Assembly (NCBI RefSeq): GCF_964019385.1
Contig: NC_088654.1
Location: forward strand, 12,874,700 to 12,938,699
Length of the DNA stretch: 64,000 bases
Direction: 5' to 3'
DNA from: Sycon ciliatum
Taxonomy: Eukaryota; Porifera; Calcarea; Leucosolenida; Sycettidae
In this document: positions 1,363 through 44,479 of the stretch, piece after piece
Layout of the letters: every line of letters starts with the position of its first letter
How positions within the stretch are numbered: the first letter of the stretch is position 1
Translations under genes and position numbers: made by a program
The notes under the pieces: generated by a model
Database searches by the model: none
The model's input: only the letters and a program-made list of their open reading frames with translations
Told to the model about the DNA's origin: nothing

Positions 1363-1888
1363 GACAAAGGAGGTTCGACTCCAGAGCAAAATTTAAAAAC
1401 CATGATCAAGTTCATCAAGGGAGTGAGGCCGGTGTGTGGCTGACATTGCAAGACTACGGGTTTGTAACCAGCTTCCAGAACCCGGAGGTACATTGTACTT
1501 TTAATCAGGAGTCGGACATGTTCACAAGAACTGGCTGCATGGCTGCATGGGGTGACGACGGAGGCTGAAGTATTTTGTTTAAATTTCGGCCAGTATGGCT
1601 GGACTTTATAGAATGTACTTCGTTACGGGAGGGAAACAGTCATGTACATGTAGGGAAGTTGCCATACAGGAGGGTGAGCCCTCTTTATTACTTCTAGAAG
1701 TATTATAAAATAATGGAAGAAGTGCATGTAAAAATCATGTACAAATATTATTGTTTTGATCTCATTTTGATTCGCTGACCAAAACGGACACAATATAACC
1801 AACAACAATGAGGCGAATAAGGAGAGGCACAGTGAGATAAGTTAATTTTATGAAGCTGAGAGCCTGTGACAGTGAGAGAGAGAGTGCC

Positions 1889-2017
1889 TGTGTGTGTGTG
1901 TGTGTGTGTGTGTGTGTGTGTGTGTGTGTGTGTGTGTGTGTGTGTGTGTGTGTGTGTGTGTGTGTGTATGTATGTGAGTGCGTGTGTGTGAGAGAGAGAA
2001 AGAGAGAGAGAGAGACA
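1889..2017. repeat. (TG)n then (GA)n microsatellite, U1
   Basis: About 39 TG dinucleotides (1889-1967) followed by an interrupted GA tract (1990-2016). The low-complexity ORFs across it are artefacts. Confidence 0.95.
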
Positions 2018-2559
2018 GACAGACAGAGAGACATAGAGGCAGAGAGACAGAGACATACAGAGACAGAGAGGAAGCTAGCTAGATAGAACAGGTTTCTGGG
2101 CTGTGTTTGTCACTATAGTGCATGGAGGTTGTGTCAGTGCACACACATCTGGTCACGAATGACTACCATCCAGTAGTTTGGTAACATTTTGGTAGTGCCT
2201 GTGGGGTAGTGATTGTGAGGCAGCCTACTAAAATAGAGAAGCAGAGGAGAAAGAGGTGGTTACTGATTCACTCGTCTCTACTGAGTGAAGAAGACCCATA
2301 ATTTGATCTGGTGAGATGCGTCATGGGACTTTGCAGTCAGATGTACGACCGCGGGGCTGGAGAGTGAAGACCAATATTTATAATAATATTCTCAGCTAGC
2401 TGTGCCCAGCACAATTTTCGTATTCGGATGCGACACAGGGAGGAAAAGCAGAGGGTGACATGGACAGTGAACACGATATCGAGTGTGGTGCCACCTTAAG
2501 GCATGCATTGTCTCAACACTGTAGTAGTAGTAGTACTCTTATTATATTACTAGGGAAAT

Positions 2560-3281
2560 CCCCACAGACTGGAGAGACTGGCAATCCCCAGAGACTGGCA
2601 ATCCCCACAGACTGGCAATCCCCACAGACTGGCAATCCCCACAGACTGGCAATCCCCACAGACTGGCAATCCCCACAGACTGGCAATCCCCACAGACTGG
2701 CAATCCCCAGAGACTGGCAATCCCCACAGACTGGCAATCCCCAGAGACTGGCAATCCCCACAGACTGGCAATCCCCACAGACTGGCAATCCCCACAGACT
2801 GGCAATCCCCACAGACTGGCAATCCCCACAGACTGGCAATCCCCACAGACTGGCAATCCCCACAGACTGGCAATCCCCACAGACTGGCAATCCCCACAGA
2901 CTGGCAATCCCCACAGACTGGCAGTCACCACAGACTGGCAATCCCCACAGACTGGCAATCCCCACAGACTGGCAATCCCCACAGACTGGCAATCCCCACA
3001 GACTGGCAATCCCCACAGACTGGCAATCCCCACAGACTGGCAATCCCCACAGACTGGCACTTCCCACAGACTGGCAATCCCCACAGACTGGCAATCCCCA
3101 CAGACTGGCAGTCACCGCAGACTGGCAATCCCCACAGACTGGCAATTCCCACAGACTGGCAATCCCCACAGACTGGCAGTCACCACACAGACTGGCAATC
3201 CCCACAGACTGGCAATCCCCACAGACTGGCAATCCCCACAGACTGGCAATCCCCACAGACTGGCAATCCCCACAGACTGGC
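2560..3281. repeat. 17-bp minisatellite, U1
   Basis: About 42 tandem copies of a 17-bp unit (CCCCACAGACTGGCAAT). Variants such as CACCACAGACTGG and CCCAGAGACTGG are scattered through it. Because 17 is not a multiple of 3, every frame on both strands stays open and encodes one 17-residue repeat. I regard these ORFs as by-products of the satellite. Confidence 0.95.
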
Positions 3282-3410
3282 TTCTTTTCTTTTTTGCCGA
3301 ACTCGTTCATACAATAATAATAATCGAGTCAGGGAAACGGCCGGATCAGCTTCGTTTTGCTCAGAGGATGTACGTGTAGATCGACCTGTACAATCATACG
3401 TACATGTATA

Positions 3411-3492
3411 GTGCTGGCAACTGAAATCCGACCCCCCCCCCCCTGGCCGGCTCGCCGCGCCGCCCGGGGGGTCGGATTTCAGTTGACAGCAC
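3411..3492. repeat. GC-loop inverted repeat, U1
   Basis: Arms GTGCTGGCAACTGAAATCCG and its reverse complement enclose a C-run, CTGGCCGGCTCGCCGCGCCG and GCCCGGGGG. The structure can fold into a stable hairpin and recurs at the same place in every unit. Confidence 0.85.
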
Positions 3493-42431: not shown

Positions 42432-43574
42432 TCAGGATTTAAAGAAAAGAAACTTTTTACCTTTCATGCAAAGGTTGCTCAGGAATAAGCCTTGCAGAAA
42501 CGGGCAACCGGTTGACATTTGATCGAACTCTGCTGTAGGCTGCAACGGAGAGTGCGAACAGTCTTCCGACATCCTGCCTATGTTAACTGGTGTTGTACCG
42601 CACAGCGGTGCGGACGGGAGACGAGAAATCTGGAACACCTGCAGGCTTTGCAAATTGCCCGCCCTGGCTTGAATTCGCTTCAGCAGTTCGTAGATGCCAG
42701 TACCGTCCCTCATCCACCCGACGATTCTCAGATGGAGGGCCATCTTGAGTGATACTGATACTAGAGTATTCATTGCCGCCTCAGTGAAGTAGAAAGAGTA
42801 ATCTCCAGGATAAGTTGTCGGCCGCACAGCAACAGTGACCCAAACCTCTTGTAAATGTTCAAATTCCAGTATTGCGTCCAGTATTGTGATATCTCTTTCA
42901 ATGAAACACATACTTAAGTCGAGCACTGCGAGGTTAGGCATGAGTTTCAAACCTTCAACTACAGTGTTTGTTGAGATTCTTGGTCCTGGGGTCGCCGGCG
43001 CGAAATCTTCTCCCATCAGCTCCAACTCTTTCACATAGTTTCCACATTTGCGAGCCAATTCCATGAATCTTCTTATCATGCTTCTGCTAGATCCTTGGCG
43101 GAAATCGAAAGACGATGTCTCACACACCCTACCTTTCCATTCAACAGCGACTCTTCGGAATTGCTGGCAGACGGTTGCTAGGTGATGACTGTGATACCAT
43201 CCATTGGGTAATTTACTGAATATCAGTGCCCATATTTCATCCGGCAATTTGGGCAACGCTGGCGAGGCAACAGACAGTTGCAATTCGTCACCTCCATTGT
43301 CGGGCTGTGGCCGTTCTCCGAAGCGTTTCTTCCTCCTACCTGCACAACATGACGAGCCTTGGGGAGCGTTCTCACCGCATTCGATTACTGCCACGCTGCA
43401 AACTTTATCTGTTTCTGTGCTACTGAAGACCTCAGCACCAACTTGGCTAGAAATTTCCCGCGGGTTGCAAACCTCACACGGTTCACTGCAAACACTGGCC
43501 GACATGCTAGGGCAGTTACTTGGTGAGTCTTCGCCAGCGTTTTCACTTGGCCCGCTCGCCGACATTCTGACCAC
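42432..43574 (-). CDS. F-box/LRR-like protein, copy 7 (type B')
   Basis: 380 codons. It starts MVRMSASG instead of MFRMSASG and has SPSNCPS and SSQVGAEVF, residues otherwise seen in type A, in an otherwise B' protein. This mosaic suggests gene conversion at the 5' end. F-box intact; ends KGKKFLFFKS. Confidence 0.72.
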   Translation of the reverse strand: MVRMSASGPSENAGEDSPSNCPSMSASVCSEPCEVCNPREISSQVGAEVFSSTETDKVCSVAVIECGENAPQGSSCCAGRRKKRFGERPQPDNGGDELQLSVASPALPKLPDEIWALIFSKLPNGWYHSHHLATVCQQFRRVAVEWKGRVCETSSFDFRQGSSRSMIRRFMELARKCGNYVKELELMGEDFAPATPGPRISTNTVVEGLKLMPNLAVLDLSMCFIERDITILDAILEFEHLQEVWVTVAVRPTTYPGDYSFYFTEAAMNTLVSVSLKMALHLRIVGWMRDGTGIYELLKRIQARAGNLQSLQVFQISRLPSAPLCGTTPVNIGRMSEDCSHSPLQPTAEFDQMSTGCPFLQGLFLSNLCMKGKKFLFFKS

Positions 43575-43983
43575 CTAGCCCGCTGCACTATCGTTGTGAA
43601 CACAAGAATCTGAAAAACAAGCTACCCGCGTTCTTCTTGTTGCGCCCCTATTAGCTTCTTGAACGCAATGGCACTCCGACTCGGAAAAGCTCAGAAACTA
43701 TAGTACCTACTAGATATTCTCTCGAATGGCTGAGAACTGTTGGACTATTAGTAGTAAAAAATAATAATATTATTACCCGGGCAGACTACGTGTATTGTAC
43801 AGTATCGGCAACCCATTCCACTGGAAAATCGTGCAAGAAGGTCTGCATGCACAGCCAGCGGGTTGTATTGTATTAGCAGAGAAGTAGTGTTCTCTGTCCA
43901 CCCGGGAACGGGTACGAGGGAGCACGGCGTGGGATAAAAGGATGTGACGAGTGCAGGGTTAATTAAGACGTCGGCCTCTTTTG

Positions 43984-44039
43984 TCTTTGTGCGGAGAGTT
44001 GAGTGAGAGTGTCTTTGTGCGGAGAGTTGAGTGAGAGTG
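43984..44039. repeat. 28-bp tandem repeat, two copies, U7
   Basis: Two copies, the fewest among B-type units. Confidence 0.88.
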
Positions 44040-44255
44040 TCTTTGTGCTGTGGAGGCCCCCACTGGCAATATGGTCGTGTTCAATGACAATAGTGGGGTG
44101 CACGTATGAGTGAATGTGCGGATGTGTGCGAAACGAGTGGAGTGCAGGATGGAGTGGAGTGCAGGGTGGACAGATAACATGACTTGTATTTTACATCATC
44201 ACAAGCCACTACTGCCTACTGTACATGTACTGGCACTGCTGGCGTCTATTACGTA

Positions 44256-44479
44256 ATCATTGATAGGGCAGGGGTGTGCGGATAATGCTCGAAAAGGTGG
44301 CAGATTCTGCTCGAAAAGCAGTAAAATTGGCAGAACCATACAAACCTTATGGCGGGCAATTCCTCGAATTCTGCTCCATTTCTTTATCCACATACCAAAC
44401 ATGCATGAAACTTACCAGAAAAAGTACCGAATTCTGCCAATTTTTCTGCCGGCATTATCCGCATATGCCTAATCATTGA
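44256..44479. mobile_element. hAT-like MITE at the right edge of the array
   Basis: Element 44264-44471 with ATCATTGA duplications at 44256-44263 and 44472-44479. Same insertion as at the two internal junctions. Confidence 0.85.

Follow-up and report, generated by a model that had tools for sequence, protein, structure and literature searches.

A 64,000-nucleotide stretch of the genome of the calcareous sponge Sycon ciliatum (contig NC_088654.1, positions 12,874,700 to 12,938,699, hereafter the window) contains seven homologous open reading frames (ORFs), all on the minus strand and arranged in one array. We propose that this array is probably a young tandem cluster of an F-box/leucine-rich-repeat (LRR) gene, and that the target-binding end of the encoded protein may be changing fast. 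The ORF survey of the window and self-BLAST confirm an earlier note, which had reported seven recurrent minus-strand F-box-like ORFs at a spacing of 4.7-7.5 kb; ATG-to-ATG distances between successive copies are 6918, 6660, 6743, 4919, 7474 and 4709 bp. The array described in that note is also present, with its limits now corrected to ~1346-44685. Kilobase-scale blocks pair at 91-98% identity in self-BLAST, far above chance: 2554-9070 matches 27800-34291 at 97.1%, and 20384-28345 pairs with 32850-40724 (8.0 kb, 96.0% identity, ~12.5 kb apart). The module borders are sharp in self-alignment, and the right edge, where unit sequence ends and runs into the flank, lies at 44265-44685. Non-unit DNA flanks both ends. 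No unit-length match was found in the 1345 bases to the left or the ~19 kb to the right, which carry short dispersed repeats only, so the array is bounded within this assembly, although further copies may lie beyond the window. The seven paralogous units thus lie next to one another in the same orientation, share their flanks and meet at defined junctions, as expected of a tandem gene cluster.

ORF prediction and alignment divide the genes into two subtypes. Subtype A comprises c1 (4835-6142) and c5 (30075-31382), both minus-strand ORFs of 435 aa whose proteins are 99% identical; they differ by three nonsynonymous and no synonymous changes across 372 compared codons. Subtype B comprises c2 (12272-13060), c3 (18584-19720, 378 aa), c4 (25330-26463), c6 (37723-38856) and c7 (42432-43565), the last three of 377 aa each. 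All five have a 6-bp in-frame gap relative to A and, near aligned codon 373, an insertion (8 bp in c2 and c3, 5 bp in c4, c6 and c7) that shifts the frame and leads to an early stop, downstream of which there is an additional 2-bp deletion. A further 4-bp insertion reduces the c2 ORF to 262 aa, although its homology continues to ~11920. An intron restoring the frame at the B frameshift was considered and rejected, as the GT...AG stretch at that site spans ~43 bp and leaves the frame shifted (alignment judged by eye). The tandem units of the earlier note are real, but the genes fall into two subtypes and the junctions into two types, and the long ORF is kept in only two of the seven copies.

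The Pfam F-box family PF12937 matches all three copies scanned at 20.5-20.8 bits (E 3-4e-4), below the cut-off of 24.3, with the match beginning at LPKLPDEIWALIF. A low-confidence structural model of residues 95-435 consists of predicted helices followed by alternating strands and helices. Searching with this trimmed model, Foldseek returned 610 matches at E<=10, of which four reached E<=0.001, all of them SKP2 chains; FBXL17 chains appeared at ranks 6, 11 and 12, and 4i6j, which we take to be FBXL3, at rank 15. The protein could instead be some other LRR protein or an orphan, as the sub-threshold Pfam score would allow. The full-length model gave no Foldseek match at E<=0.001, and NLRs, ribonuclease inhibitor and other LRR proteins scored Z values equal to or above those of SKP2 and FBXL17. 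Against this, PF12937 matches every copy scanned, though below the cut-off, and SKP2 came first in the trimmed-model search, and we consider a wrong F-box assignment improbable. A sequence search of the PDB gave three sub-significant matches, to unrelated proteins only, and a profile search of the PDB gave none. The protein may resemble the FBXO39/FBXO33 group. No relatives were found among IMG/VR viral contigs, and none of seven pattern matches in GTDB genome contigs was confirmed. Pfam detected nothing above its cut-off in 11 further distinct ORFs of the window. As an F-box/LRR protein, the product would join an SKP1-cullin-F-box (SCF) ubiquitin ligase via its N-terminal F-box, while the LRR-like C-terminal part would bind substrate. 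The A copies would be the long, functional form of the gene; those of subtype B would be either a shortened form or genes en route to becoming pseudogenes.

Between subtypes A and B there is a statistical excess of amino-acid change in the C-terminal part, mainly from one contrast. Over the 369 codons compared between c5 and c6 there are 7.3 synonymous and 44.7 nonsynonymous changes, where a neutral simulation expects 13.7 synonymous (P=0.0165). The same simulation reveals a synonymous deficit in two other A-B pairs, c5 with c3 (P=0.009) and c1 with c3 (P=0.0085); for two pairs within B the whole-gene values are P=0.16 (c3 with c6) and P=0.14 (c3 with c7). The deficit is found in codons 241-372, with P=0.004 for c5-c6, P=0.0025 for c5-c3 and P=0.002 for c1-c3, and within B P=0.036 for c3-c6 and P=0.06 for c3-c7. 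Codons 1-240 do not depart from the neutral simulation in any of the five pairs (lowest P 0.45). For two A-B pairs the whole-gene result persists under all six mutation models applied (P from <0.001 to 0.04). When the C-terminal part of c5-c6 was read in all six frames, only the true frame fell below 0.05 (P=0.003), and the noncoding 3' flank of the same pair showed no deviation in any of six frames (lowest P 0.082). Of the 66 sites that vary among the seven copies, 14 are at third positions (P=0.022). The earlier note had listed neutral dN/dS between copies among the signs of a mere satellite; read in frame, the differences between A and B depart from neutrality. The synonymous deficit is concentrated in the C-terminal part and confined to the true frame. 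Reading the array as satellite DNA fails, and a fast-evolving F-box/LRR cluster fits best. On this reading the C-terminal part would have been under diversifying selection.

Several observations qualify this interpretation. A single A|B split accounts for 41 of the 66 variable sites, so the signal is mostly one contrast, and the P values are uncorrected for the choice of pairs or for the border at codon 240, which was set post hoc. Divergence between c5 and c6 is 2.1% in the N-terminal part, 9.5% in the C-terminal part and 5.7% in the whole 3' flank, rising to 10.4% (35/337) in the flank adjoining the gene; the C-terminal part is therefore not faster overall than its neighbour. Synonymous sites in the N-terminal part are also quiet, so that conversion between the two subtypes accounts for that part as well as constraint does. 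Five of the seven copies, all of them B, are truncated, and neither AATAAA nor ATTAAA was found within 1.6 kb downstream of any of the seven.

Some of these observations suit a decaying pseudogene cluster, in which a gene caught in an unstable, repeat-rich segment has left copies that drift, with at most one or two expressed. Every B copy is truncated and c2 is broken a second time, no copy has a canonical poly(A) signal, all three coding differences between c1 and c5 are nonsynonymous, and A and B are as far diverged in the C-terminal part as in the noncoding DNA next to it. Drift, however, predicts a neutral synonymous share, and the deficit observed is frame-specific. Moreover, in three pairs the stretch that corresponds by homology to the coding sequence of A is quieter than the 3' flank: c1-c5 (3/1308 vs 29/1423, P=6e-6), c4-c6 (1/1305 vs 11/1400, P=0.007) and c6-c7 (5/1305 vs 24/1396, P=0.0006). 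The pattern is not uniform, as the c2-c3 stretch is not significantly quieter than its flank (10/1308 vs 19/1400, P=0.14), and recent gene conversion can also yield quiet stretches, the one in c1-c5 running ~400 bp beyond the stop. On balance we regard decay as unlikely, though it deserves serious attention, and retain the young F-box/LRR cluster.

The earlier note had left the choice between a rapidly evolving SCF substrate-receptor family and a gene being converted to satellite DNA. Of these, an F-box-like gene amplified with its flanking repeats and bearing signs of rapid protein change is upheld, and conversion to satellite is not supported, given seven bounded units of unequal length, distinct junctions and non-neutral A/B differences. 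Satellite DNA proper, in which a great many equal units make up one long homogeneous array, is rejected because of the number of units, their borders and their junctions: the seven unequal units are joined in two ways, and in this assembly the array ends at ~1346 and 44685. A gene-bearing satellite still in formation, in which minisatellite and hairpins drive structural amplification and the gene is a passenger, would account for the joint presence of minisatellite, palindrome and gene in all seven units. With only seven units, of unequal lengths and mixed junction types and bounded on both sides in the window, and with non-neutral coding differences, we consider this very improbable.

A tandem-repeat scan located a 17-bp minisatellite on the 3' side of every gene, first at 2575-3281 (41.5 copies), with sister arrays at 9587-10215, 15816-16015, 23096-23639, 27735-28533, 35590-36031 and 40115-40725. 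Six arrays have 26-47 copies and the one beside c3 has 11.8, split by a ~690-bp insertion (16016-16704) that contains a (TC)n tract, ends in A40 and is possibly a retroposon. Self-alignment also identifies a ~90-bp palindrome in all seven units (3407-3496 in the first), corresponding to the hairpin of the earlier note, and an inverted repeat with 94-bp arms (6370-6682) upstream of the A genes only, of which B retains one arm. Minisatellite and palindrome are thus shared by all units, as had been claimed, but the GT/GA microsatellite is not: it is confined to the four long junctions between genes and to the array's left end, and is absent from the two short junctions.

In the long junctions (c1-c2, c2-c3, c3-c4 and c5-c6) the upstream region leads into a module, M2, that carries the GT/GA microsatellite (7610-9070 by self-BLAST), and then into a foldback element with 155-bp arms (9008-9568 by self-alignment). 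In all four, GTAGTATTAT borders the foldback on both sides in the manner of target-site repeats; in two of the four the foldback is split by an insert. A diverged M2 at the left end (1346-2535) is 85-88% identical to three of the long-junction copies and matches the fourth in two pieces, at 81% and 92%. There, near 2535-2545, M2 passes to minisatellite without a foldback; the left end therefore resembles a related empty site, presumably the ancestral state. Sequence comparison further identified a 781-bp terminal-inverted-repeat element, beginning GGGTTGGTTCACAT, inserted in the foldback of the c3-c4 junction (21799-22579). Its second copy, in the c5-c6 junction (34292-35072), differs at none of 781 positions, as would fit if the block 20384-28345/32850-40724 had recently been duplicated or converted. 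In the short junctions (c4-c5 and c6-c7), self-alignment reveals a ~400-bp copy of the right edge (44265-44685) joined to the foldback right arm with ~1-2 bp of overlap, at 27219-27618 and 39584-39997, the joins lying at 27618 and 39997.

These sequence comparisons indicate that the units form by tandem duplication with homogenisation. Whole units, made up of minisatellite, gene and upstream region, together with M2 and foldback in four junctions, recur in tandem with the two junction types, and units have transposon insertions in common. The well-marked junctions, including the related empty site and the identical transposon copies, make the duplication order readable; we infer the exact exchanges and the order of duplication and insertion. 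A more far-reaching proposal is that the locus encodes lineage-specific SCF receptors engaged in an arms race with a pathogen or selfish element. Both the long A form and the short B form would be retained together, amino-acid change would centre on the LRR part, and the minisatellite and foldback sequences would serve as hot spots of duplication from which new receptors keep arising. We hold this to be distinctly unlikely. If expressed, the array would be one more F-box/LRR cluster, one in which the half that binds substrate appears to evolve under selection; in other respects it exemplifies a well-known process.

The right flank contains further repeats. A ~125-bp segment at 27301-27424, 39666-39789 and 44347-44471 is 97-98% complementary to 55593-55717, and the right edge of the array therefore carries a dispersed repeat copied along with the units. 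Dispersed repeats at 55593-56635 and 58756-59728, some of them inverted, resemble the right-flank pieces 44296-44838 and 45775-45955. The paired arms of inverted repeats at 55712-56585 are 98% and 92% complementary. A distinct 17-bp minisatellite (AAGGTGACCACTTGGAT) is located at 60543-60672, and a piece related to it (82%) lies at 55189-55245. At 45233-45790, on the minus strand, a 185-aa ORF without a Pfam match resembles, by eye, the C-terminal end of a non-LTR (long terminal repeat) retrotransposon reverse transcriptase. A plus-strand tRNA-Arg (CCT) gene at 48410-48482, identified with Rfam and ARAGORN, is the sole tRNA and the only Rfam match at gathering score in the window.

Fast-evolving F-box clusters are of a kind known from nematodes and plants. 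No description of the present cluster was found in the titles and abstract beginnings of papers with open-licence full text, which is weak evidence. Like the FBXL proteins SKP2 and FBXL17, the top Foldseek matches of the trimmed model, the protein is predicted to have helices followed by strand-helix repeats, but its sequence is not detectably similar to that of any solved chain. In bivalves an F-box orthogroup has 2.4 genes per species compared with 1.1 elsewhere (PMC8382680); many C. elegans F-box genes are pseudogenes and C. remanei F-box clusters reach 43-71 genes (PMC5041008). Large clustered gene families, those C. remanei genes included, are discussed there as adaptation or as genomic parasites (PMC5041008). 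The Sycon array resembles these in being a tandem gene-family cluster; it differs in that its copy number is small and nothing indicates self-propagation. According to PMC8665587, Caenorhabditis F-box paralogues arose by species-specific tandem duplication, with the N-terminal F-box part under purifying selection; in the C-terminal part, dN/dS peaks exceed 1.5 in 73 of 95 paralogue pairs of C. elegans and in 25 of 37 of C. briggsae. Compared by description only, the present array shares with these clusters tandem duplication and C-terminal change, and is distinguished by its seven copies, five of them truncated, and by multi-kilobase units with minisatellite and foldbacks.
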